Source: Thauera sp. K11 | GTDB taxonomy: Bacteria > Pseudomonadota > Gammaproteobacteria > Burkholderiales > Rhodocyclaceae | Reading direction: 5' to 3' | NCBI RefSeq assembly: GCF_002354895.1 | Contig: NZ_CP023439.1 | Location: forward strand, 3,658,001-3,722,000 | Length of the DNA stretch: 64,000 bases | Shown: positions 52-28,460 of the stretch, piece by piece | Numbering within the stretch: position 1 is the stretch's first letter | How the letters are laid out: each line of letters starts with the position of its first letter | Notes under the pieces: model-generated | What the model saw: only the letters and a program-made list of their open reading frames with translations | What the model was told of the DNA's origin: nothing | The model's database searches: none | Position numbers and translations under genes: made by a program

Positions 52-2078
52 GATTCGCGGCTCCGCTCGATGAGGGCGTTGTCGTACGGGTCCACCCGCA
101 GGGTCCATCCGGCGGGGATCACCATCGTCGTCTGCCGGGATTCGACGATCGCCGGCCCGGCGAGGGCATGGCCGTGCCCCAGCCGCTCGCGGTCGTACAC
201 CGGCAGCGGCCGCACGCCCTGGCGCGGGTCCAGATACACCTTGCGCTCGCCGCGCCGCGCGGCGGCAAGCGGCGCCTCCGTCGCCGGGCGGGCGGCCTGG
301 CGGTAGTGCGGCACCGACGAGCGGGCGAAGACGCCCAGCGTCGCCAGCCGCGCGCCGGCGTCCGGCTCCAGGCCGAGCGCCGCGGCCGCACGCCGGCGCA
401 GGGCTTCCAGCGGCGCCGCTTCGTCGAGGATCTCCAGCGGCGCAGCCAGCCGCGCCTCGCGGCCGCCGCCATCGTCGACGATGGATTCGAGCTGCCAGCG
501 GATGCCGTCGCGCTCGAAGCCTTCGCCGCGCATGTCGGCCTCAGCCCGCCGCCGCAGGCTTGCCACCGCCTGCAGCACGGGCTCGGCGTCCTGCCCCGGC
601 GCGAGGGAGAGATCCATCCGCTGGCAGTAGAGGTGGCCGACGTCCATCAGCGAGGAGGAATAGGCCGAGAACACCGCCGAGAAGGGCGTGACCACGAGGC
701 GGCCGATGGCCGCGGCTTCGGCGATCGCGCAACTGTGCAGCGGGCCGGCGCCGCCGTAGATCACCATCAGCGGGTCGGGCTGCGGGCCCATCTGGTCGCG
801 CAGCCGCGCCAGCTCCCGCCCGACGTCGGCCTCCACCGTTTCCCTGATCCGCCACGCCGCTTCCTCGATGCCGATGCCGAGCGGACCGGCGACGTGCTCG
901 GCGATCGCCCGGCGCGCCTTGTCGACATCCAGGCTGCGGCTGCCGCCGAGGAAGTAGGCCGGGTCCAGCCAGCCGAGCACGAGGTTGGCGTCGGTCACCG
1001 TCGGCTGGGTTCCGCCCAGGCCGAAGCAGGCCGGGCCGGGCAAGGCGCCCGCCGACTGCGGGCCGACGCGCAGGCGCCCGCCCGCCACGCTCGCGATCGA
1101 ACCGCCTCCGGCGCCGAGCGCGCGGATCTCGAGCATGGGCAGGTTGCAGTCGAAGCCTTCCACGTCGGGGCGCAGGGCATAGCCCGGCTCGCCTTCGAGC
1201 ACGCAGCCGATGTCGAACGAGGTGCCGCCCATGTCGCCGGAGATCACGCAGCGCGCGCCGTACAGCGCCCCGATCTCGCGCGCGCCCAGCAGGCCGGCGG
1301 CGGGGCCGGAATTGTAGGTGTTGATGGCGCGGGTCTTGGCCACGCGCGCCACCGCCCCGTTGTTGTGGCCGATGAGCAGTTGCCCGCGGTAGTGGCGGCG
1401 GCGCAGGTCCTCGCCGGCCTTGTACAGCAGCCGGGTGAGCTTGCCGTGGATGTAGGCATTGAGGACGGCGGTGTTGATGCGCTCCCGGTAGCCGCTGCGC
1501 TGCACGATGTCGGACGACAGGAAGACCGGCACCGAGCCGAGGTAGTCGCGCGGATATTCGCGCTTGATGGTCTCGCGGATGGCCTGCTCGCCGGCCGGGT
1601 TCAGGTCCGCGTTGGCGAGCGCGACGACGAGGCAGCGCGCCCCGCGGTCGATGAGACGCTGCGCGGCCTCCATGATCTGCCCGGCCTGCGGCGCATGCCT
1701 CGCGCGGCCGGTGGCGTCCATCGCCTCATCCACGCCGGCGACCATGTCCGGCGCCACCAGCGGGCTCTTGCCTTCCGCATCCACCGCCGGGGCGAGCGCC
1801 TCGTGGCCGGCGGTGACGATGAGGCCGATCTTGGCACCGTCGCGCTGGATGATCGAATTCGTGCCTATCGTGTTCGAGAACCGGATGATGTCGGTGCGGA
1901 ACAGGAAGTCGCGCAGCGGCAGGTCGAACGCGCGGGCGGCTTCCTCGATGCACGCCATGAAGCACAGCGTGAGGTCGTGCGGCGTGGTCGGCGTCTTCAC
2001 CGTGCGGAAGGCATCGCCGGACGTGACGAACCCATCGGTGAAAGTGCCGCCGGTGTCGATATCGACGGTAAAACCCAT
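48..2078 (-). CDS. HyuA-family subunit of an acetophenone/acetone carboxylase-like or hydantoinase-like enzyme
   Basis: This 676-residue protein begins MGFTVDIDTGGTFTDGF, the phosphate/nucleotide-binding motif of the hydantoinase A/oxoprolinase (ASKHA) family. An internal GDMGGTSFDIG motif is a second ASKHA phosphate loop. The family hydrolyses ATP to activate ketones (acetone and acetophenone carboxylases) or opens hydantoin/oxoproline rings. The length of about 72 kDa, and the small-subunit gene coupled downstream, favour an ApcA-like ketone carboxylase subunit. The partner large subunits (HyuB-like) are expected beyond position 1. A TetR gene 59 bp upstream is probably co-transcribed. The exact substrate cannot be read from the sequence; hydantoinase remains possible. 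Confidence 0.75.
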   Translation of the reverse strand: MGFTVDIDTGGTFTDGFVTSGDAFRTVKTPTTPHDLTLCFMACIEEAARAFDLPLRDFLFRTDIIRFSNTIGTNSIIQRDGAKIGLIVTAGHEALAPAVDAEGKSPLVAPDMVAGVDEAMDATGRARHAPQAGQIMEAAQRLIDRGARCLVVALANADLNPAGEQAIRETIKREYPRDYLGSVPVFLSSDIVQRSGYRERINTAVLNAYIHGKLTRLLYKAGEDLRRRHYRGQLLIGHNNGAVARVAKTRAINTYNSGPAAGLLGAREIGALYGARCVISGDMGGTSFDIGCVLEGEPGYALRPDVEGFDCNLPMLEIRALGAGGGSIASVAGGRLRVGPQSAGALPGPACFGLGGTQPTVTDANLVLGWLDPAYFLGGSRSLDVDKARRAIAEHVAGPLGIGIEEAAWRIRETVEADVGRELARLRDQMGPQPDPLMVIYGGAGPLHSCAIAEAAAIGRLVVTPFSAVFSAYSSSLMDVGHLYCQRMDLSLAPGQDAEPVLQAVASLRRRAEADMRGEGFERDGIRWQLESIVDDGGGREARLAAPLEILDEAAPLEALRRRAAAALGLEPDAGARLATLGVFARSSVPHYRQAARPATEAPLAAARRGERKVYLDPRQGVRPLPVYDRERLGHGHALAGPAIVESRQTTMVIPAGWTLRVDPYDNALIERSRES

Positions 2079-2137
2079 TTGTCTCCTCCGTTGTCATCGG
2101 TCGTTGCTTGCGTTTTTTTTCGGGTGACGACCGCGGA

Positions 2138-2770
2138 TCAGCTCCGCCCCGGCGGCGCGCCGATCACGCCGTAGAGGACGAAGGCCACGATCTCCTCGTA
2201 CACCTCCTCGGGGCTCATCGGGCCGTCGGAGCGATACCAGCGCAGGTACCAGTTCACGACGCCCAGCACGTTGAAGGCGAGGATCTTGGTGTGCGGGCTC
2301 TTCACCAGCCCCTCGGCGTGCAGGGCCTCGAGCAGTTCCACGTACACGTCCAGCACCCGCTTCTGGATCGCCTTGCTCGCCTGATCGCCGCTGGCGGACA
2401 TCCGGTCGTAGTCGATCAGGAAGATCTTGGATTCCTTCTGGTAGGCCGACGACGCGGCCAGATGCGCGCGCAGCACGCGGCGGAAGCGCTCGAGCGCATG
2501 GCCGCCCCCCGCCGCCGCCTTCTCCAGCCGGTCGGGCAGGCCCTTCACCGAGTAGTCCAGGATCGCCGACCACAACCCTTCCTTGTTGGTGAAGTAGTGG
2601 TAGATCACCGAAACGCTCACGCCGAGCGTCGAGGCGATGTCGCGTATCGACGTTCCCTTGAACCCCTTGGCGGCGAACAGATCGACCGCGGTCTGGAGCA
2701 GTTCTTCTCGCCGTCCGGTGCGCTCGACCGGCTCGGCCTCGGCGACAGCGACGGCTGGGGTTTCGAACAT
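2138..2770 (-). CDS. TetR/AcrR family transcriptional repressor
   Basis: This 210-residue protein has an N-terminal helix-turn-helix typical of TetR (RREELLQTAVDLFAAKGF, then IRDIASTLGVSVSVIYHYF) and a C-terminal all-helical ligand domain. I chose ATG 2768-2770 because a GAGGAAA ribosome binding site sits just upstream; a longer reading frame starting at 2842 lacks such a site. It lies between the divergent SDR gene and the carboxylase-like genes. Two identical palindromes at 2904-2918 and 3049-3063 and a degenerate third copy at 2798-2812 are likely its operators. It would repress its own operon and the SDR until a ketone, alcohol or CoA-thioester effector binds. The effector is unknown. Confidence 0.9.
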   Translation of the reverse strand: MFETPAVAVAEAEPVERTGRREELLQTAVDLFAAKGFKGTSIRDIASTLGVSVSVIYHYFTNKEGLWSAILDYSVKGLPDRLEKAAAGGGHALERFRRVLRAHLAASSAYQKESKIFLIDYDRMSASGDQASKAIQKRVLDVYVELLEALHAEGLVKSPHTKILAFNVLGVVNWYLRWYRSDGPMSPEEVYEEIVAFVLYGVIGAPPGRS

Positions 2771-2797
2771 TTCTGTTTCCTCGATGGCTGATGGGTA

Positions 2798-2812
2798 TCG
2801 ATCATTCGTTCT
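2798..2812. promoter_or_regulatory. Degenerate third TetR operator copy
   Basis: TCGATCATTCGTTCT matches 12 of 15 positions of the two perfect operators. It lies 28 bp upstream of the TetR start codon, so binding would cover the leader of the repressor gene. Confidence 0.4.
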
Positions 2813-2903
2813 ACTGCCCGCCCATGTTAGCCGCGCTCCCATCCGGCGCGGCAGTCGGGAAAGTTGAAGCAGGATCGTCCAGGCTTCGTTGCGCGGAAAT
2901 AAA

Positions 2904-2918
2904 TCGAACGATCGTTCT
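2904..2918. promoter_or_regulatory. Probable TetR operator, TetR-proximal
   Basis: TCGAACGATCGTTCT contains the perfect 12-bp palindrome GAACGATCGTTC at 2906-2917. The same 15 bases recur exactly at 3049-3063 in the same divergent intergenic region. Palindromes of this kind flanking a TetR gene are the usual operators for the family. Confidence 0.75.
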
Positions 2919-3048
2919 TGTGTCCATTCTTGCGATGCCGCCTGCCCTTGTCAACCGCTTTCCCAGTATTTTTGTACGAAACGAGCCATCACGCGCTCTG
3001 CCCTGGGCGTCTTGACGAAGCGCCTTCCGGCAAATTAAGGTATTCGTA

Positions 3049-3063
3049 TCGAACGATCGTTCT
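3049..3063. promoter_or_regulatory. Probable TetR operator, SDR-proximal
   Basis: This is an exact 15-bp repeat of the site at 2904-2918, ending 52 bp before the SDR start codon. With one site near each divergent gene, coordinate repression of both directions is likely. Confidence 0.75.
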
Positions 3064-3115
3064 GTCGTTCGCCCGCCGTTCCGACGCATCCGATCAAGAC
3101 AAGGAGGAGACAGAC

Positions 3116-3895
3116 ATGAAACGCGTAGAAGGCAAGATCGCCCTCGTGACCGGCGCCGCCAACGGCCTCGGCCGCGCCACCGCCGCCGTGCTGGCCCGCG
3201 AAGGCGCCCTGGTGCTGCTCACGGACATCGACGACGCCGGCGGAGAAGCCGCCGCCGAAGGCATCCGCGCCGCGGGCGGCAAGGCCCGCTACTGCCACCA
3301 CGACGCCTCCAGCCCCGACGACTGGGCATCGGTGCTCGCCCGGCTGGACGAAGCCCACGGCCGCCTCGACATCCTGGTGAACAACGCGGGCGGCGGCACC
3401 TACAACGACATCGAGACCGTCAGCCTCGAGCAATGGCGCAGGATCATGGCGATCAACCTGGACGCCACCTTCATCGGCACCCAGTCCGCCATCCGCTGGA
3501 TGAAGAACACGGGGGGCGGCAACATCATCAACGTCAGCTCGGTGGCCGCGTTCAGCGCCGCCCCCAACCTCGCCGCCTACTGCGCGGCGAAGGCGGGCAT
3601 CAACATGCTGTCCAAGTCGGCCGCCGTGTATTGCGGGCAGAAGGGCTACAACATCCGCATCAACGTCGTGCATCCCGGACTGATCGAAACCAGGTCGGGC
3701 GTCGAGATGGCGCGCCTGGCCACCGGCGCCGCGCGGGACGAAGACGCGATCGCGATGTTCACCGCCCTGCACCCCATCGGCCGCATCGGCCAGCCGGACG
3801 ACATCGCCAACGGCATCCTGTACCTGGCCTCGGACGAATCGCGCTTCGTCACCGCCTCCAGCCTGATCATCGACGGAGGATTCACCGCCGTCTGA
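3116..3895 (+). CDS. Short-chain dehydrogenase/reductase (NAD-dependent, classical SDR)
   Basis: This 259-residue protein carries the classical SDR motifs: TGAANGLG nucleotide loop at residues 12-19, NNAG at 89-92, catalytic Ser 141/142, and Tyr155-Lys159 (YCAAK). Asp37 after the second strand favours NAD over NADP. The start at 3116 follows a strong AAGGAGGAGA site at 3101-3110. It is divergent from the TetR and carboxylase-like genes and shares their operators. A secondary-alcohol dehydrogenase feeding a ketone to the adjacent carboxylase, as in the 1-phenylethanol to acetophenone step of anaerobic ethylbenzene degradation, is plausible. The substrate is inferred only from context. Confidence 0.88.
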   Translation: MKRVEGKIALVTGAANGLGRATAAVLAREGALVLLTDIDDAGGEAAAEGIRAAGGKARYCHHDASSPDDWASVLARLDEAHGRLDILVNNAGGGTYNDIETVSLEQWRRIMAINLDATFIGTQSAIRWMKNTGGGNIINVSSVAAFSAAPNLAAYCAAKAGINMLSKSAAVYCGQKGYNIRINVVHPGLIETRSGVEMARLATGAARDEDAIAMFTALHPIGRIGQPDDIANGILYLASDESRFVTASSLIIDGGFTAV

Positions 3896-4091
3896 CGCCG
3901 GACGCCGCCACGGCGGACCCCGATGCAGCCGCCGGCGGCGCAATCGCGCGCCGCACGTGCGCACGGCAAGGCGCCGGGCGGGCCTGCCGCGCCTTTTCCG
4001 AAGGCGCGCCTGCCGTCATGATGGCGGCCGGGGACGTTCCGCGACCGCCCGACCGGTGCGGCGCCGCGCCCCGCACCGGAGCCGCCGAGGC

Positions 4092-5015
4092 ATGGACCTG
4101 AAGAACTTCGACCTGAACCTGCTGGTCATCTTCGACCTGTTGCTGAAGGAAAAGAAGGTATCGGGCGTCGCCGACCAGCTCGGCCTCACCCAGCCCGCCG
4201 TCAGCCGCTCGCTGAAACGGCTGCGCAACCTGCTTGGGGACGAACTGTTCTACCGCACCTCGACCGGCATGGAGCCGACCGCCCATGCGCGCCAGCTCGC
4301 CGAGCCGATTTCCTCCGCGCTCGATGCGCTCGGCAACGCGATCAGCCAGCGCGCCTCCTTCGACCCCGCGACGAGCGACAGGAACTTCACCATCCGCATG
4401 TCCGACATCGGCGAGATCTACATCCTGCCCCGGCTCCTGAGCGTGCTGGCGGAAGAAGCGCCGGGCGTGTCGATCACCGTGGTGCGCGACCACGGCGAGA
4501 CGCTGAAGGCCGGCATGGAAGCCGGCCGCATCGACCTGGCCATCGGCCTGATCGACAACCTCGAAGCCGGCTTCTTCCGCCGCCAGATCTACAGGCAGGG
4601 CTACGTCTGCGTCTTCCGCCCCGACCATCCGCTGGCCGGACGGACGATGAGCCTGGACGATTTCCTGGCGGCCGAACACGTGCTCGTCACCGGCACCGGC
4701 AGCGGCCACGCGCAGGTCGACGACCTGATCGGCAAGCAGGGCATCCAGCGCAAGGTGCGCCTGCGCATCCCCAACTATGCGAGCCTCGAACGGCTCCTCA
4801 GCGGCTCGGACCTGATCGCCACCGTGCCCGAGGCACTGGTCCAGCCCAACATCTCGCCCTTGTCGCTGGCCTGCTCCCGCCATCCCGTCCAGCTTCCCAG
4901 GCTGTCCGTCAACCAGTTCTGGCACGCGCGCTTCCACCGCGACCCGGCCAGCCAGTGGCTGCGCGAGGTGATCGCCGTCCGCTGCGCCCTGCCGCCCGTC
5001 GTTCCGGCGGCCTGA
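4092..5015 (+). CDS. LysR-family transcriptional regulator (NahR/LinR-like)
   Basis: The 307-residue protein starts MDLKNFDLNLLVIFDLLL and has a winged helix with the segment VADQLGLTQPAVSRSLKRLR, followed by a periplasmic-binding-protein-like effector domain. The DLNLL opening is typical of the NahR/NodD/LinR branch that senses aromatic compounds. The longer reading frame from 3957 is rejected because the LysR fold begins at this Met. It lies 196 bp downstream of the SDR on the same strand; that gap holds no recognisable feature. Its target could be the SDR operon or the convergent meta-cleavage operon. No T-N11-A site was identified. Confidence 0.88.
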   Translation: MDLKNFDLNLLVIFDLLLKEKKVSGVADQLGLTQPAVSRSLKRLRNLLGDELFYRTSTGMEPTAHARQLAEPISSALDALGNAISQRASFDPATSDRNFTIRMSDIGEIYILPRLLSVLAEEAPGVSITVVRDHGETLKAGMEAGRIDLAIGLIDNLEAGFFRRQIYRQGYVCVFRPDHPLAGRTMSLDDFLAAEHVLVTGTGSGHAQVDDLIGKQGIQRKVRLRIPNYASLERLLSGSDLIATVPEALVQPNISPLSLACSRHPVQLPRLSVNQFWHARFHRDPASQWLREVIAVRCALPPVVPAA

Positions 5016-20276: not shown

Positions 20277-20437
20277 TCATTTGAAGTGTGGCCCAATATA
20301 GCCTACATGAACGCGCCGGTCCCTAGTGTCGCAAAAAAAATGAACCCTGAAACCAAGCTGCACTTTAATATGATCTTGGAAGTAAGCAGCCTCGCCCGTA
20401 GTGTTCAAATGGAAAGTGCGCTGAAGCTGCCTCCTTC
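20277..20437 (-). pseudogene. 3' fragment of the defence-cassette third gene, cut off by IS66
   Basis: This segment encodes the 50 C-terminal residues of the gene whose 5' part lies at 23036-23863. Joining 23863-23044 to 20437-20277, that is removing the IS and one target copy, gives 981 bp = 326 codons plus stop with no frame shift. The fragment has a dense C-terminal patch ending VHVGYIGPHFK. In place it has no ribosome binding site of its own and is unlikely to be translated. Confidence 0.85.
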
Positions 20438-20463
20438 GTAAGCGCTCCACGAACCCCATCCTT
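20438..20463. repeat. IS66 terminal inverted repeat, tnpC side
   Basis: 26 bp, exact reverse complement of 23010-23035. The adjacent outer 8 bp (20430-20437) are the target duplication. Confidence 0.97.
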
Positions 20464-20474
20464 CCCCGAGCCCG

Positions 20475-22253
20475 CTACGCCGTGATCAACTGCTCAGCCT
20501 TGAGATTCCAGGGCAGGAGGGCCTCGAAATGTTCGACGGTGGTCGCAGCGGGCAAGGCGCGCAGCACGTGGCGCAGCCACAGATACGGCTCGAAGCCGTT
20601 GGCTTTGGCGGTTTCGACCAGCGAGTAGAGCAGCGCGCTGGCGCGCGCCCCGGCTTGGGTGTCCGAGAAGAGCCACGCCTTCCTCCCAATGACGAAGGGA
20701 CGGATGGCATTCTCGGCCGGGTTGTTGTCGATCGGCAGATCGCCGCGCTCGAGGTACCGGATCAGGCGCGGCCACTGCCGATGCAGGTAGCCCAGCGCAC
20801 CGCCGAGCACCGAGGTGGGCGGCACGGTGGGGAGCGCTTGATCGAGCCAGCGGCGCAGTTCGTCGATGACGGCGCGGCTTCTGCTCTGGCGTAGCACCAG
20901 GCGCTCGGCGTCATTGAGTCCGCGTGCGTCCTTCTCGATGGCGTAGAGCTTGCTGATCAGGGCCAGGGCTTCGTGGGCCCGGCCGCGCTTACCGGCGGGC
21001 AGCACCTTGCCGGCGTCGACGAAACGACGCCTCGCATGCACCCAGCAGCCGAGCCGGGTCACCCCTTCGGTGAAGGAGATCGCGCCGTAGCTCTCGAGCC
21101 CGTCGGCCATCAGATGCCCCTTCCAGCCTTCGAGCAGGCGTAAGGGCACCGCCTGCGCGCGGCTCGGATCGTACTCGAAGAGGACCACCGGCTTACCCGG
21201 CGGGCCGCCGCGCTGCACCCACATCTGGCTCTTGCTCGTGGCTGCCCGGCCAGGCTCCTTGAGCACCTGCACCGGGGTCTCGTCCATGTGGATGACGTCG
21301 TGCCCGAGCAGCACGTCGCGCATCAGGTTGGCGAGCGGCTGCAGCGCCCGGGCGGTGCCGATCACCCAGCGGGCCAGGGTCTGACGCGGCACGAGCACGC
21401 CCGCGCGAGCGAGCACGTACTCGAAACGCGCCAGCGGCAGCCCATCGACGTACTTGGTGACGAGCAGCATCGCCAGGAGGTCGTTGCTGGCGTTGCTCTT
21501 GGGCAGCACCTGCGCTGGGGCGCGGGCGGTGACCGGCGCCTGGTCGCCCTGGGGGCAGCCGTAGCGCTTGCGGATATGGCGCAGCACACGCACCTGCATC
21601 GGGACGATGTCGAGCTGTTCGCTGACGTCCTGGCCGATCTCGACCATGGGTGTGCCGCAGGCGCAGGTGCGCTCGGCTTCGGGGACGTCGTGGACGACGT
21701 CGATGCGCGGCAGCTCGACCGGCAAGGGCTTGCGCTTGCCGCGCGCCTTCTTCTTGCCGGTGTCGGCGGGCGTCTCCCCCGTCGTCTCGGTGGCCGGCGG
21801 CGGCAAGGTTGCGGTGTCGCCCGCCTCGGGCGCGGACTCGACCAGCGCCTCGGCCTCGTCGAAGAGCCACCCCTGGCCCGCGTGCGATTCGCTGCTGGGC
21901 CCGAACATGCGCCGACGCGCCAGACGCAATTGCTCGTAGAGCTCGAGGATGCGTGCCTCGAAGGCTTTGTGCAGTTCCGCCTCCCGCGCATCGAAGGCTC
22001 TTTGGCGTTCAAGCTCGCGGGCATCGAACGCTTTCTGAAGTGCGGCCTGCCGGGCATCAATGGCTTGCTGGAATGCGGCCTCCCGGGCCTCGAGGGCTGC
22101 CTGTCGTTCGGCTTCACGCGCCTCGAAGGCACGCTGCTGCGCCAGCAGCAAGACCTTGAGTGCAGTCGGATCGTCGGGCAACTGCGCGGGGAGGACGGAT
22201 GCGCACACGCCAACGGCGGAGTTCGAGAGCGGGTCGGCGGGGCGGTGCGGCAT
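20475..22253 (-). CDS. tnpC: IS66 transposase TnpC (DDE transposase)
   Basis: The 592-residue protein has the full IS66 transposase layout. A long N-terminal coiled coil made of six 11-residue repeats (residues about 41-106) is followed by a zinc-finger-like segment around TCACGTPM. The DDE domain has HMDETPV, LMADGLESYG and the final Glu in IDNNPAENAIRPF. A short IS66 C-terminal domain ends the protein. The start is placed at ATG 22251-22253 (MPHRPADPL). The reading frame extends further upstream and overlaps tnpB. No frameshift is visible, so it may be functional. Confidence 0.93.
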   Translation of the reverse strand: MPHRPADPLSNSAVGVCASVLPAQLPDDPTALKVLLLAQQRAFEAREAERQAALEAREAAFQQAIDARQAALQKAFDARELERQRAFDAREAELHKAFEARILELYEQLRLARRRMFGPSSESHAGQGWLFDEAEALVESAPEAGDTATLPPPATETTGETPADTGKKKARGKRKPLPVELPRIDVVHDVPEAERTCACGTPMVEIGQDVSEQLDIVPMQVRVLRHIRKRYGCPQGDQAPVTARAPAQVLPKSNASNDLLAMLLVTKYVDGLPLARFEYVLARAGVLVPRQTLARWVIGTARALQPLANLMRDVLLGHDVIHMDETPVQVLKEPGRAATSKSQMWVQRGGPPGKPVVLFEYDPSRAQAVPLRLLEGWKGHLMADGLESYGAISFTEGVTRLGCWVHARRRFVDAGKVLPAGKRGRAHEALALISKLYAIEKDARGLNDAERLVLRQSRSRAVIDELRRWLDQALPTVPPTSVLGGALGYLHRQWPRLIRYLERGDLPIDNNPAENAIRPFVIGRKAWLFSDTQAGARASALLYSLVETAKANGFEPYLWLRHVLRALPAATTVEHFEALLPWNLKAEQLITA

Positions 22254-22275
22254 GCCGCAATTATACCCGATTATG

Positions 22276-22635
22276 CTACGTAACTGATTGGTATTGCAGT
22301 GTTTTATGTGGCCTGGCCGCCCACAGATCAAAGCCCTCGAGCAACCATTCGAGCTCCTTCATCGTGAGTACGCAGGGGGGCTCACCGGCCTCGGTCGAAG
22401 GCCAGGCGAAACGCTCGGCTTCCAGCCGCTTGTACCAGAGGCAGAAGCCATTTCGGTGCCAGTACAGCGCCTTGAGCTTGTCGCGGCGGCGGTTGATGAA
22501 CAGATACAGCGCGTCGCCGAACGGGTTCAGCCCCAGCTCCTGCTCGACCAGCGCCGACAGCCCGCCGATGGACTTGCGGAAGTCGATCGCCGGCCGGTAC
22601 AGATACACCGCGCCGATCGAATGCCCCGGGTGCAT
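22276..22635 (-). CDS. tnpB: IS66 accessory protein TnpB
   Basis: The 119-residue protein has the TnpB signature: IGAVYLYRPAIDFRKSIGGL and LYLFINRRRDKLKALYW. Its ATG (22633-22635) shares one base with the tnpA stop in a TGATG overlap, so the two are coupled. TnpB is needed for IS66 transposition, but its activity is not known. Confidence 0.93.
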   Translation of the reverse strand: MHPGHSIGAVYLYRPAIDFRKSIGGLSALVEQELGLNPFGDALYLFINRRRDKLKALYWHRNGFCLWYKRLEAERFAWPSTEAGEPPCVLTMKELEWLLEGFDLWAARPHKTLQYQSVT

Positions 22636-22952
22636 CAGCGCCCCCGCTCGGCAAGGGCTGCCGACAGCGCGGCGAGCCAGTCGACGCCCGGCAGTGTCGC
22701 GCACTCGAGCCGCAACTGTGCATCGATCACCACCGTGCAGCCCGCGCGGGCCGCCATCGAGGGTTCGATCTGGATCGGGACGAATCCGCCAAGCTTGGCG
22801 CGGCTACCACGGCCACCGGCTACCAGGCGCTTGCGCCACTGATAGAGCGCCTGTGGCGACAGCCCTTCGCGCTCGGCGTACGCCTTTGTGGTAATGCCCT
22901 CGGCTTCGATTGCCGACAGGTGCGACAACCAGAACGTACTGCGCTCCGACAT
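22635..22952 (-). CDS. tnpA: IS66 accessory protein TnpA (helix-turn-helix)
   Basis: The 105-residue protein has the small IS66 OrfA fold. Its helix-turn-helix segment KAYAEREGLSPQALYQWRKRL probably binds the element ends. The start at 22952 (MSERSTFW) is the usual one; an in-frame Met farther upstream also lies inside the element. Confidence 0.9.
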   Translation of the reverse strand: MSERSTFWLSHLSAIEAEGITTKAYAEREGLSPQALYQWRKRLVAGGRGSRAKLGGFVPIQIEPSMAARAGCTVVIDAQLRLECATLPGVDWLAALSAALAERGR

Positions 22953-23009
22953 GCTCGTGCTCACTGAAAAAACGGAAGCCAAAGCATGCCGGCTCACCCG
23001 GGACTACAT

Positions 23010-23035
23010 AAGGATGGGGTTCGTGGAGCGCTTAC
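23010..23035. repeat. IS66 terminal inverted repeat, tnpA side
   Basis: 26 bp, exact reverse complement of 20438-20463. The outer 8 bp (23036-23043) are the second target copy. Confidence 0.97.
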
Positions 23036-23863
23036 CCTCCTTCGATCGTTTGCGCACGTTTCAGACTCTCCGCTTACACGGTGGGCCAGACCGAGACGCC
23101 GCAATGTTTCATGAGTGTACTCGTGAATCTCACCCCTTTTCCACTTGTCTGCAAACACGTCAAGAACTCTCATCGCGTCGCGGCTCTGTTCGAGGCAGGA
23201 TAACCGATGGCTCCACGTCCGCAGCTGATCTGGCGCACGGCCACAGAATTCCAAGTGCGGAAACAAACCATTTCTATTCTCCCAGATTTCCCTACCTGAG
23301 CGCATTGCTGCATGTCTTGCAGCAATCAGGGACTGCTCAACGTCATCAAACACATCAAGCGAATAAAGGTTTACCACCCAGTTCGCTTTTATTTTAATCT
23401 CGCCGATATCGCCCATCTCCTGGACGTGAACCATGATTGGTGATTTATTCCATGGTTGACGAGTGGGAAAGCTTATAATTCCAGAGCCATGCCAGACAGC
23501 CGCCCTCAGCACAGAAAATGAAGTCTTTGATTCACTATGTTCGACATCAAACAATAGCGCAGCTTCTAATTCTTCCGGTGAAAAAAAAGGCTGTCGGGTT
23601 GAGATGCTGCGAAAAGCCTGCGCCTGTTCCCTCAGTAATGGATCACGAAGAGCCCTCTCCGAGTACCAATCCTGCCAATAGTAACCGGGAGTCAGTTCAA
23701 TTCGAAACCAGTGCGCATCAACATTCTGGTCAACAATGATTGTTTTCAATCCACAACGCCCAGCCCTCAAGCATAATCTCAAGAACTTTGGCATCAGGTC
23801 ATTGAGCTGCTCCTTGTCAGCAAACGGCAGGCAGTGATGGTTGAAGAAGGCAAACTCTCCCAT
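23036..23863 (-). pseudogene. 5' part of an unknown third gene of the DUF262/DUF3696 cassette, interrupted by IS66
   Basis: The first 276 residues remain (start ATG 23861-23863, sharing one base with the ATPase stop in TGATG). The frame then runs 13 codons into the IS and stops at 22994, so a 289-residue truncated product could still be made. The intact ancestor was 326 residues. I recognise no catalytic motif. Visible segments are GEFAFFNHHCLPF, VDAHWFRIELTPGYYWQDW and LYSLDVFDDVEQSLIAARH. The gene is low in GC like its two neighbours. It is probably the third component of the same system; its function is unknown. Confidence 0.85.
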
Positions 23864-24969
23864 CACAGAAGCTGCTCCAGATTCCTGTCCCACTCATCAA
23901 AAAATCCCGTAGGCCAATGATCGATGCGTCCGTCTGCGTCAACGGCTGGCCTTTGAACTACAGATGCGTGTTCGTTGTCGTCCTGATGACGTTCCAAGTA
24001 AAATAAACAAACCTGGTCCGGTTCAATTGACTTCTTACGTATAGCAACACGAATCCCGTTCAAGAAGTGATCGGAGTGGGATTCGATAATCAACTGAATC
24101 CCAGATGCGGCTGCAAGCGCGCACATTCTTCCGATCGACGACTGACCCGCGGGGTGAAGGTGGGACTCTGGGTTCTCAACAATAATGAGGTCCCCAGGCT
24201 CGCTACGTAGCACTGCAGTTACAACGGGGAGAACGTACGATAGCCCGAAACCAACATTCTGAGGCTTGAATTCAGCGGTTAGATCCTTCCCTTGCTCAAA
24301 AGAGAAGGACAAGTTTGCTACACCAAACTGCGATTGCGTTGATGCATTTATCCTAACACCAGGTGAAATCTCGGACATCCATGCATTTACGTTTGCCAAG
24401 ATGGTATTGGACGTCGCCATGGAATGCTGTAGCACAGGATTCTGAACAGTCTTTTGCCCGTACTCCGCAATATACTGAACCGCATACTCTCCGTGATTAC
24501 CGATTGAATTCAAGAGACGTAGATTGAAATCTGAAACTTCGTGCTGACTACGAGGCCCAATCCTGTCCGCCGACAAATATTGGAACTGACGATTAAATAA
24601 GCTCTGTAATTCCAACTGCTCAATGTCGTTTGATGCTCCGGACGGCTGAAGGTCAGAATCCTGTGAGTAATCAAAGCAGAATTTCCTTCCGGGTAGAGAA
24701 CTCCATTTCACGAAGAATTCAAATGAGTTGAGATCCGCTTGAGCGGAAAGTACATCTTGACCGACGCCTAGATTGACGTATGCACCCTTCAATAGAAGGC
24801 CACGCTTTTGAAGCACATTGAGTTCATATGACTGTCTCAGCAGCAACAATGCTTGAATAACTGACGATTTACCCATTCCATTAAGACCCGTAAACAGGTT
24901 CAACCGCCCGAGTGCAAAACTATTATCTAGTAACGTTTTGAATCGTTGAATTCGAACAAACTCAATCAT
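23863..24969 (-). CDS. AAA15/OLD-like ATPase with C-terminal DUF3696 domain
   Basis: The 368-residue protein is an SMC/OLD-type ATPase. Walker A is GLNGMGKS (residues 28-35), a signature-like stretch NVGFGLSYVLP covers 239-248, Walker B is IVENPESHLHP (263-273) and the His switch is ESHSDH around His298. The C-terminus WPTGFFDEWDRNLEQLL is the ending typical of DUF3696 proteins. The start follows a GGAG site and lies 22 bp after the DUF262 gene. The gene has far lower GC than the chromosome around it. Such ATPases occur in several anti-phage systems; here it would energise or gate the cassette. The nuclease or toxin partner is not obvious. Confidence 0.85.
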   Translation of the reverse strand: MIEFVRIQRFKTLLDNSFALGRLNLFTGLNGMGKSSVIQALLLLRQSYELNVLQKRGLLLKGAYVNLGVGQDVLSAQADLNSFEFFVKWSSLPGRKFCFDYSQDSDLQPSGASNDIEQLELQSLFNRQFQYLSADRIGPRSQHEVSDFNLRLLNSIGNHGEYAVQYIAEYGQKTVQNPVLQHSMATSNTILANVNAWMSEISPGVRINASTQSQFGVANLSFSFEQGKDLTAEFKPQNVGFGLSYVLPVVTAVLRSEPGDLIIVENPESHLHPAGQSSIGRMCALAAASGIQLIIESHSDHFLNGIRVAIRKKSIEPDQVCLFYLERHQDDNEHASVVQRPAVDADGRIDHWPTGFFDEWDRNLEQLL

Positions 24970-24991
24970 TGATGATCTCCGTAAGAGAAAG

Positions 24992-26143
24992 TCATCGTAC
25001 CGCTTCTGCTATTATCCGATTAATCCGTTCGTAACGAATTCGAACATGATCTCGTTTTTGTGTTGCCAACGAAATTGATCGAAAGAAATCATCATCTTCA
25101 GTTATCAATCTTTGAAGCCTTGCGATAATATCTTGCCGTGCAGAAATCAGGGTTTCTGCGGATACATAATTTACCTTGGCCAGGCAGACAGACCAAACCT
25201 CGAATAAGGTTGTATTCTTTCGCTTGCGCCGGTCAGTATCGCCTATTGCTTTCTTTTCAAATGCGGAATTGCCGAATATTTGCTCGCACAACTGCATCGA
25301 TCCCCGAAATTTCTTTTCGAGATCTACCAACTCCAAGTCTGTCTTCTTTTCAAGAGCCCCCATTGCCTCGTCCATGAATTCGGCGATATTTTTTGGACTC
25401 TTTATGTAGTCTTGTGTGAGAAAAGCGATAAAACGTAAGACCAACTCCTGATCTAGCAGGCGCTTTGATTGGTCCCCGATGGTGCGTAGAAAGTTTTCAT
25501 CTCTTGCTAGCTTTTGAAGGAATTCACGTTCGCGCGGTTTCGCCAGAGCATTTCTGATTTCCTGGCTATTCAATACTAAGCCGCCGGTATTAATGCGGCG
25601 AAAGATGCTATATTTGACCTCACCTGGCGTGCCTCTTTGAATCAAGAACAGCGTTACCGGGCATTCGTCGATTCGACGTTTGTATTGTCTCGGCAGATCG
25701 TTATAAGTTTTTGACGTAAGATCCTTAAGATATTCTAGATTGGACAGTCGGAGCGGTTTTTCGTGATCGATTACGAATCGACGTATAGAAGATAGTCGCT
25801 GTAAACCATCTACCACAAGCCATCTGTCGTCGTCTGAGGCATCGAAGTAGAAAGCAGGCAACGGGAAGCGGATCAAAATCGATTCGATCAGCCTGGACAT
25901 TTGGCCTGGGGTCCACAGGTCGGCATGCCGTTGAAAGTCGGTATTCATGTCGATCTCGTCATTCCGCAGCCGATCAATTAGATTCCGTAGAGTATCCTGC
26001 TTGGCTTGGATGTTTATTTTCGTCGGATCGAACGGTTCCATCATTAATGGATCGGTCACTTCACCGTCGCGATCGTCGGCAAGCTCATCGCCGGTCTCAA
26101 GCTCGTACGTTTCGTTGAGTGCGTCGCTAGATTGGAGATTCAT
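24992..26143 (-). CDS. DUF262 (GmrSD-like, ParB/Srx fold) protein
   Basis: The 383-residue protein has the DUF262 domain with the conserved VVDGLQRLSSIRRF motif (Asp112, Gln115, Arg116), and a preceding YFDASDDDRWLVVDG stretch. A helical C-terminal part follows. There is no DUF1524 HNH nuclease domain as in full GmrSD enzymes, so this is the stand-alone N-terminal half. DUF262 domains bind or hydrolyse nucleotides in type IV restriction and other defence proteins. The start is set at ATG 26141-26143, without a clear ribosome binding site; a GTG at 26191 is also in frame. It is first in a three-gene operon. Confidence 0.83.
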   Translation of the reverse strand: MNLQSSDALNETYELETGDELADDRDGEVTDPLMMEPFDPTKINIQAKQDTLRNLIDRLRNDEIDMNTDFQRHADLWTPGQMSRLIESILIRFPLPAFYFDASDDDRWLVVDGLQRLSSIRRFVIDHEKPLRLSNLEYLKDLTSKTYNDLPRQYKRRIDECPVTLFLIQRGTPGEVKYSIFRRINTGGLVLNSQEIRNALAKPREREFLQKLARDENFLRTIGDQSKRLLDQELVLRFIAFLTQDYIKSPKNIAEFMDEAMGALEKKTDLELVDLEKKFRGSMQLCEQIFGNSAFEKKAIGDTDRRKRKNTTLFEVWSVCLAKVNYVSAETLISARQDIIARLQRLITEDDDFFRSISLATQKRDHVRIRYERINRIIAEAVR

Positions 26144-26633
26144 CGAGTACTGTATGCAATGGAGGCTGGTAAGCCGGTTATCATATAACACTTAACCCGC
26201 AGACGTGACCTGGGGAGGGCAGTGGGTGCCCGGTGAAGTTGTCGCAGGCGCTATGATCGGCGCGTGACCACGCGCCCTCAGGATATAGATCAATTCAGGA
26301 TGTGCCCCTAGCACCACATCCGTGGATATTTCGCGGAGAGTGAGTCGTCCGACTACATGCTGAAGTTCCCCGAAAGATGTTGCCCGTAACCCAGCCTATA
26401 TCCTGTTTTTCGCGTCGGACAGATGGCAGAAGCCGCCCGGAAGCAGGCGGGCGGCAGCGATTTGGAGCTTAGCCGAAATGGTTGAACTGCTCAGTACTGT
26501 AACCTCCCCCTGCTAGATACAAACCACCGTGTCCTAGCGTACTCTGAACTGACCCCAGATAAAAAAACGCCCGGCAATCAACCGGGCGTTTTCGACTTCA
26601 TTTGTCAGCAATAGCAAGGCCAACGCGACCCCA
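26144..26633. other. Gene-free region between the defence-like cassette and glmS
   Basis: These 490 bp have no supported gene. They contain an 18-bp inverted repeat at 26259-26276 (GGCGCGTG-AC-CACGCGCC), about 115 bp upstream of the DUF262 start, and the glmS terminator at 26560-26592. The promoter of the cassette must lie here, but no convincing -35/-10 pair was seen. CTGAACTGACCCC at 26543-26555 resembles the end of some IS3-family elements, but no partner end was found. Confidence 0.5.
26560..26592 (-). terminator. Intrinsic terminator of glmS
   Basis: An 11-bp stem (AAAACGCCCGG at 26564-26574 with CCGGGCGTTTT at 26582-26592) and 7-base loop is followed on the minus strand by a run of T. 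It lies about 40 bp after the glmS stop. Confidence 0.9.
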
Positions 26634-28460
26634 TCATTCCACCGTAACCGACTTAGCCAGATTCCGCGGCTTGTCCACATCCGTCCCCTTCACCAGCGCT
26701 GCGTGATACGACAGCAACTGCAGCGGGATCACGTGCAGCACCGGCGACAGCATGCCGTAGTGCTCGGGCATGTGCAGGATGTGCACACCTTCGGTTTCGG
26801 GAATCTCGCTGCCGGCGTCGGCGAAGACGTAGAGTTCGCCGCCGCGGGCGCGGACTTCCTGCAGGTTGGACTTGAGTTTTTCCAGCAGGTCGTCGGCCGG
26901 GGCCACGGCGATGACCGGCATGTCCTTGTCGACCAGGGCCAGCGGGCCGTGCTTGAGTTCGCCGGCGGCGTAGGCTTCAGCGTGGATGTAGGAGATTTCC
27001 TTGAGCTTGAGCGCGCCTTCCATGGCGATCGGCCAGTGGCTGCCGCGGCCGAGGAAGAGTGCGTGTTCCTTGGCGGCGAAGCGCTGCGCCCAGCGTTCGA
27101 TCTCGGGTTCGAGCTCCAGCACCTTCTGCACCGCGACCGGCAGGTGGCGCAGGGCGGTGAGGTGGCGGTTTTCCTCGGTCTCGGAGAGGCGGCCGTTGAG
27201 CTTGGCCAGGGCCAGCGTCAGCAGCGCGAGCGCGGCGAGCTGGGTGGTGAAGGCTTTGGTGGAGGCGACGCCGATCTCGGGGCCGGCGCGGGTGATGAAG
27301 CGCAGCGCCGATTCGCGCACGATGGCCGATTCGGGCACGTTGCAGATCGCCAGCGTGCGCTCCATGCCCAGGCTGCGGGCGTGCTTGAGCGCGGCGAGGG
27401 TGTCGGCGGTTTCGCCGGACTGCGAGATCACGACGACCAGCGTGTCGGGATCGGGCACGGATTCGCGGTAGCGGTATTCGCTGGCGATCTCGACCGTGCA
27501 GGGCATCTTCGCGACCGCTTCGAACCAGTAGCGCGCCACCAGGCCGGCGTGGTAGCTGGTGCCGCAGGCCAGCACCAGCACGCGGCGCGCACCCTCGAAG
27601 ACTTCGGGCGCGCGGGCGCCGAAATGCTGGGTGGCGACGGCGCCGCCGCCTGCGATCATTTCCAGCGTGTTGCCCAGCGCCTGCGGCTGCTCGAAGATTT
27701 CCTTCTGCATGTAGTGGCGGAACTGGCCCAGTTCCACCGCGTCGGCCGACAGGCTGGAGATGTGCACCTCCCGCTCCACGGGTGTGCCGTCGGGGCGGAC
27801 GATGCGGTAGCCGTCGAGGCGCAGTTCGGCGAGGTCGCCGTCTTCCAGGTACACGACCTTGCGCGTGACCTGCAGCAGCGCGGCGGTATCGGAGGCGGCA
27901 TACATGCCGTCCTCGCCCACGCCCAGCAGCAGCGGCGAGCCGCGGCGGGCGACGATGGCGCGGAAGGGGTCGGCCTCGGCGACGACGCCGATGGCGTAGG
28001 CGCCGGCGAGTTCGTTGGTGGCCAGGCGCACCGCGTCGAAGAGGTCGGGCGTGATCTCGAGCTTGCTGTGCACGAGGTGGGCGATGGCCTCGGTGTCGGT
28101 CTCGGATTCGAACACGTAGCCGCGCGCCTGCAGGCTTTGCTTGATGGTCTCGAAGTTCTCGATGATGCCGTTGTGCACCACCGCGAGGCCGCTCGAGATG
28201 TGCGGATGGGCGTTGCGCTCCGAGGGCACGCCGTGGGTCGCCCAGCGGGTGTGGGCGATGCCGATGGTGGCCGACAGGCGGCGCGCGTCGGCCAGGGCGG
28301 CGAGTTCCGCGACGCGCCCGGCCGAGCGCAGGCGGATCAGTTCGCCCGACAGCACGGCGAGGCCGGCGGAGTCATAGCCGCGATATTCGAGCTTGCGCAG
28401 CCCCTCGAGCAGCACGGGCACGACGTTGTTCGTGGAGATGGCGGTAACGATGCCACACAT
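26634..28460 (-). CDS. glmS: Glutamine-fructose-6-phosphate aminotransferase (isomerising)
   Basis: The 608-residue protein begins MCGIVTAIS, with Cys2 as the N-terminal glutaminase nucleophile. Two SIS sugar-isomerase domains follow ([14 protein letters not shown] and [19 protein letters not shown]), and the end is AKSVTVE, as in canonical GlmS. It makes glucosamine-6-phosphate, the first step toward UDP-GlcNAc. It follows glmU by 49 bp on the same strand. The region after its 3' end is a known insertion hotspot (attTn7), and the low-GC block lies there. Confidence 0.97.

Follow-up and report, generated by a model that had tools for sequence, protein, structure and literature searches.

The window analysed here is a 64,000-nucleotide stretch of Thauera sp. 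K11 DNA (NZ_CP023439.1, positions 3,658,001 to 3,722,000). Between glmS and ilvA it carries three minus-strand genes, nsnA, nsnB and nsnC, of the Menshen (NsnA-NsnB-NsnC) system, which PMC10952713 attributes to Millman et al. 2022. The first gene, nsnA (24992..26143), encodes a stand-alone DUF262/GmrSD_N protein and reads from an ATG at 26143 to a stop codon ending at 24992, with an alternative longer GTG start possible at 26191. It is followed after 22 bp by nsnB (23863..24969), the product of which is an OLD-like ABC ATPase with a GxxGxGKS loop and a DUF3696 tail, and nsnB in turn shares a TGATG overlap with nsnC, which starts at 23863. Searches with the PADLOC models gave matches along the operon in the order NsnA (4.8e-118), NsnB (3.3e-114) and NsnC, the last being matched through the 5' piece of nsnC alone (2.2e-47 and 5.9e-25, best model PDLC03879). 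Pfam matches were to GmrSD_N (2.7e-20) for NsnA and to AAA_21 (3.5e-19), AAA_15 (1.4e-15) and DUF3696 (1.6e-15) for NsnB, and the DGLQR motif was invariant across 14 aligned NsnAs, the window's NsnA among them. The GC content was 0.459 for nsnA, 0.466 for nsnB and 0.495 and 0.471 for the two pieces of nsnC, compared with 0.672 for the window and 0.684 for glmS. An original prediction made from the letters of this DNA had described three linked genes with exactly this spacing, a stand-alone DUF262 protein with a DGLQR motif, an OLD-type ATPase with a DUF3696 tail and a low GC content relative to flanking genes, and had noted a make-up similar to that of Menshen. The reading frames, Pfam and PADLOC bear out this description, and the comparison with Menshen was correct in that PADLOC models match all three genes. 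By descent and make-up the trio is Menshen, and the operon is not intact, nsnC being split.

The interruption in nsnC is a 2598-bp insertion sequence (IS) on the minus strand (20438..23035; GC 0.674), with 26-bp terminal inverted repeats beginning GTAAGCG and flanked by two identical 8-bp target-site duplications (20430..20437 and 23036..23043). A break in the third gene had been implied in the original prediction, which spoke of a restored third protein and an uninterrupted homologue, and the span it gave, 20277-26143, takes in this element. Encoded within it, also on the minus strand, are the transposase TnpC (20475..22331; Pfam DDE_Tnp_IS66 2.6e-98, NCBIfam 4e-126), TnpB (22276..22704; Pfam TnpB_IS66 1.7e-36) and TnpA (22635..22997; NCBIfam IS66_ISAeme5_TnpA 1.4e-11), with the NCBIfam models transpos_IS66, IS66_TnpB and IS66_ISAeme5_TnpA all matched above cut-off. 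The ends of IS66-family elements begin GTAAGC, and target duplications of 8 bp are typical of the family. With TnpA, TnpB, TnpC, the GTAAGCG ends and the 8-bp duplication all present, the inserted element belongs to the IS66 family. The same genome holds two further copies of the element, each 100% identical over 2587/2592 query bases, and because of these identical copies the insertion in nsnC is taken to be recent.

The insertion leaves a 5' piece of nsnC (23036..23863, minus strand), consisting of 276 host codons for the N-terminal domain and the start of the C-terminal one, and a 3' piece (20277..20437, minus strand) with the last approximately 51 residues. When the two pieces were searched separately against the intact homologue P0002, the 5' piece was 75% identical to residues 2-277 of it, and the 3' piece was 82% identical to residues 277-327. 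The frame of the 5' piece extends 13 codons into the IS, which results in an open 289-residue product (P0001).

Linkage of the three genes was surveyed at 26 loci around NsnA matches (24 from NsnA-model searches and two from another search) and, in a survey of the phylum, at 20 further NsnA places (E <= 1e-80, the window itself and one repeat excluded). NsnB was present at 13 of the 26 loci, the 13 without it being weaker NsnA matches of at most 322 bits, and at 18 of the 20 phylum places, the exceptions being L139 (425 bits) and L152 (324 bits). One of the 31 NsnB loci in all (L145) ends at a contig edge, and every one of the 30 with a following gene in view has an NsnC-like third gene. Our own NsnC profile recovered NsnC as one frame at 26 of these 30 loci; 10 of those 26 NsnCs were in the profile's own alignment, all 15 members of which also match PADLOC NsnC models. 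The PADLOC models recognized NsnC at L080, L086 and L150; at L080 it follows NsnB after 360 bp and aligns to positions 51-296 of a 298-position model. The gene order A-B-C was common to the other loci examined. At L087 (8238-9205, genome G300) NsnC is present as two overlapping frames of 213 and 120 residues, with the switch of frame near an A-rich run and a predicted domain boundary; a draft error, phase variation, a pseudogene or a split gene are all possibilities.

With respect to the setting of the homologues, NsnA relatives (E <= 1e-40) were found on 10 of 72,556 plasmid records, and the two such plasmids that were opened both carry DUF262, DUF3696 and hypothetical genes consecutively. 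The 7.6-kb Psychrobacter sp. plasmid pA40P3 (L214) has as its main cargo a DUF262-DUF3696-hypothetical trio (1278-4514), Menshen by make-up, its other listed genes being for replication and mobilization together with one hypothetical. Ten large flanking proteins, chosen by us from five NsnB loci, were also scanned. At L065, in a genome of the same family (G051), the neighbours of the trio match PglX, PglZ, PDC-S02 and the defence-type reverse transcriptase RT_UG5-nitrilase, and several defence genes run consecutively in one direction. Neighbours at L084 match a type III restriction enzyme and methylase, one at L079 an HmaA-type helicase and one at L080 a PD-T4-6/mad6-type kinase, while the two flanking proteins scanned from L086 gave no match. 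The proposal of a defence cassette could have failed had the three genes been unlinked or their homologues confined to core surroundings; the trio is conserved, and the homologues examined lie on plasmids or beside other defence genes.

For NsnC, Pfam and NCBIfam gave no usable match, searches of solved structures by sequence with NsnC and NsnC alignments returned nothing relevant, and a viral structure library held nothing convincing. Stray matches to QLQ, BBS2_Mid, Thioredoxin_6 and similar families were judged to be chance. Modelling of homologues of this NsnC did produce a candidate, as their C-terminal domain was predicted to adopt a RelE/YoeB-type toxin fold (predicted local distance difference test score, pLDDT, 95). 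Among the 50 structural matches listed for this domain, 41 carry RelE-superfamily names, 8 more are members of the same superfamily under other names, and the remaining one is Txp40. The highest Z-values were to YoeB and YafQ entries; E. coli RelE, at 6.7, was level with the first ParDE entry, at 6.6.

The best-conserved residues of NsnC fall within this predicted domain. Among 30 NsnCs, in P0002 numbering, H297 is kept in 27, K299 in 25, R305 in 28, Y321 in 21 and G323 in 27, and all five lie in model strands 296-324; H297, R305 and G323 are the sole alignment columns conserved in at least 90% of the 30. The conservation of H297, K299 and R305 is suggestive only, hinting at the catalytic residues of a predicted RNase. 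In the window these residues sit in the 3' piece, which the insertion severs at about residue 277 and which supplies five of the seven strands predicted for the RelE-like domain (model strands at 282-324). Since the conserved C-terminal residues are cut off, the Menshen of this strain would be unable to fire and has most likely been switched off.

The cassette adjoins glmS (26634..28460, minus strand), a core gene at the edge of an insertion hotspot. At 20 same-genus loci glmS was 88-94% identical with glmU adjoining, and when the 8 kb immediately downstream of glmS were compared by blastn among 16 congeners, only 3 of 120 pairs shared more than 20% of their length. This low sharing makes the site a real hotspot within the genus, as the original prediction had claimed. 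No tRNA was found within the window, so the hotspot is not explained by a tRNA attachment site inside the window, and Rfam gave no match in the window at gathering scores. To the left of the cassette the next gene is ilvA. A search for ilvA next to glmS found none at 29 loci from other genomes, each with 1.5-kb flanks, and none in 16 congeners over stretches of 13-16 kb, and for this reason the exact empty site could not be shown. The NsnA model (E <= 1e-20) matched 6 of 101 genomes, namely the genome of the window and five among 100 relatives (G001-G020 are listed as without a match, and 75 non-matching genomes are unlisted by name). None of the five is in the same genus, NsnA being absent from 28 same-genus genomes (G001-G028), and NsnB adjoins NsnA in just one of them, G051. 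Given this distribution in the sampled genomes, this lineage has probably acquired the cassette recently.

Taken together, we consider it likely that the locus is a horizontally acquired Menshen anti-phage cassette recently disarmed by the IS66-family insertion, and that an intact NsnC is a toxin under the control of NsnA and NsnB. In such a mechanism the DUF262 protein and the OLD-type ATPase would form the sensing and switching part, which either restrains NsnC or loads it. NsnC would be the effector, with a Rossmann- or PIN-like N-terminal domain followed by the toxin domain of RelE/YoeB fold. Once released, this domain would attack RNA, probably acting on translation, and the cell would stop, resulting in abortive infection. 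Passages of a review (PMC10952713, citing Millman et al. 2022) describe DUF262 as an NTPase domain, report that Menshen no longer protected once its DUF262 gene was mutated or deleted, and propose that DUF262 regulates an OLD nuclease in Menshen.

Several observations weigh against this assignment of NsnC. The Z-values, which reach 8.6, are near the range the tool commonly gives for models without a clear match, and Foldseek returned only E 0.04 and probability 0.85 for the C-terminal domain and nothing notable for whole NsnC, where the best match (E 0.084) was an unrelated protein. The fold was modelled in homologues of one NsnC subtype; 29 of 30 NsnCs have no Pfam match of the RelE superfamily, and the remaining one touches Gp49 at E 0.003, below the curated cut-off. 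In profile-profile comparison the C-terminal domain gave probabilities of 0.1-0.9% against Gp49 and YoeB, similar in kind to those of the N-terminal and reversed controls (0.1-0.6%). As Gp49 against YoeB, which served as the positive control, likewise failed at just 1.4%, this test was without power as run. At position 325, 16 of the 30 NsnCs have H and 12 have K. The review passages cited above also associate an OLD-family TOPRIM domain with a Menshen component, which would place the nuclease elsewhere in the trio.

A further difficulty concerns activity. ParE has the same fold as RelE and poisons gyrase, so the fold is no proof of RNase activity. An RNase is favoured only weakly over a gyrase poison in these models because YoeB and YafQ have the top Z-values, but RelE and ParDE are level. 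There is accordingly a minor but real chance that the C-terminal domain of NsnC is RelE/ParE-folded and no RNase, being either a ParE-like gyrase poison or a non-catalytic binding module.

Unlikely, in our view, is a Menshen that works mainly by DNA restriction, with NsnA and NsnB recognizing and cutting or nicking invading DNA and NsnC serving as an accessory specificity or regulatory subunit. NsnA does belong to the GmrSD N-terminal family, and the NsnA at L046 (4972-7047, Flavobacterium noncentrifugens) has an N-terminal extension with MTaX1 and Mrr_N domains, both of which are restriction-associated. The statements in PMC10952713 on a DUF262-regulated OLD nuclease and on TOPRIM point the same way. 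Against this, no DUF1524 or HNH part was found in the window's NsnA, where GmrSD_N alone passes the Pfam cut-off, no TOPRIM domain was found by Pfam in its NsnB, and no nuclease domain scored above the Pfam cut-off in NsnB or in the product of the nsnC 5' piece. The predicted toxin-type fold belongs instead to the RelE-like domain of NsnC.

It is quite improbable that the cassette is still alive, either because the truncated NsnC of 276 host and 13 IS residues works or because NsnA and NsnB alone benefit the strain. In favour of this, nsnA and nsnB have undamaged open frames, and a frame of 289 residues stays open for the truncated NsnC, but the part removed contains all three of the columns conserved in at least 90% of the 30 NsnCs and most strands of the predicted C-terminal domain. 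Finally, the original prediction had offered, as a variant, a DUF262/DUF3696 system whose effector is undescribed, and neither Pfam nor NCBIfam has a name for the third protein. The reading of the trio as a new system was rejected as hardly credible, since PADLOC assigns Menshen names to all three proteins (NsnA and NsnB below 1e-113, NsnC as given above) and the third gene is a broken nsnC.

In comparison with known systems, the window has all three Menshen components in one operon in the order A-B-C as elsewhere, and apart from the interruption of nsnC no other difference was found. The pairing of an ABC ATPase with a separate effector resembles PARIS, and NsnB matches PADLOC AriA at 1.7e-18. 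In PARIS (PMC12839542), the OLD-type ABC ATPase AriA detects a phage protein and activates AriB, a tRNA-cutting TOPRIM partner. In contrast, the predicted effector fold of NsnC is RelE-like and NsnA is an extra DUF262 component; PADLOC at E up to 1 gave no AriB match for the nsnC 5' piece, and the best models being NsnB and NsnC, the trio is not PARIS by these models. NsnA shares the DUF262 domain and DGLQR motif with GmrSD, BrxU and SspE, but these have DUF1524 or HNH; NsnA has neither, the ATPase and NsnC are separate proteins, and the trio would not qualify as a GmrSD type IV enzyme, in which DUF262 is coupled to such a nuclease. PD-T4-2 is also similar, with NsnA matching PD-T4-2_A at 2e-32, but the window has NsnB and NsnC where that system has PD-T4-2_B. 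As for RelE, YoeB, YafQ and HigB toxins, the predicted NsnC domain matches nearly their whole length, but it is fused to a large N-terminal domain and encoded behind an ABC ATPase with no small antitoxin beside it, and the likeness is one of predicted fold, sequence similarity not being established.

Other arrangements of NsnA were also observed. At L066, L068, L091, L092, L094 and L095 an NsnA-like DUF262 gene without NsnB is followed by a gene for 168-239 residues. PADLOC (E up to 0.001) gave no match for six of seven scanned partners of NsnB-less NsnA-like genes, the seventh, at the weaker NsnA-like locus L067, being PD-T4-2_B. An NsnA-like DUF262 protein with a 168-239-residue partner is possibly an undescribed two-gene DUF262 system. 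The strong NsnA match at L139 (421-1569, genome G514) had no NsnB or NsnC in the 5.7 kb fetched, and the same genome holds two other NsnA copies linked to NsnB. At L080 NsnA is 624 residues long, with an extension unnamed by Pfam.

A table in a 2026 review (PMC12926258) gives the mechanism of Menshen as unknown. Among the literature matches and passages covered, none gives a RelE-like domain in NsnC; these did not include Li et al. 2025 (gkaf357), on Menshen domains, which may well already contain an assignment of NsnC, and no priority is claimed for the RelE-type fold. The system is already known, and the locus in the window is another, broken, Menshen. We would extend the proposal only tentatively, because the C-terminal H, R and G are common to 30 diverse NsnCs: Menshen overall may be a leashed-toxin system, functionally PARIS-like with a different toxin fold, in which the NsnC of every subtype ends in a RelE/YoeB-fold toxin domain held under an OLD-type ABC ATPase and a DUF262 NTPase in place of a small antitoxin, and in which IS insertions let the host shed the costly toxin and keep the sensor genes. 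With the effector prediction, of a RelE-type fold and three conserved residues that are charged or polar, a small set of mutants would suffice to tell restriction from abortive infection. The locus itself is a natural knock-out, a clean case of an insertion that disrupts a defence system within the domain predicted to be its toxin.
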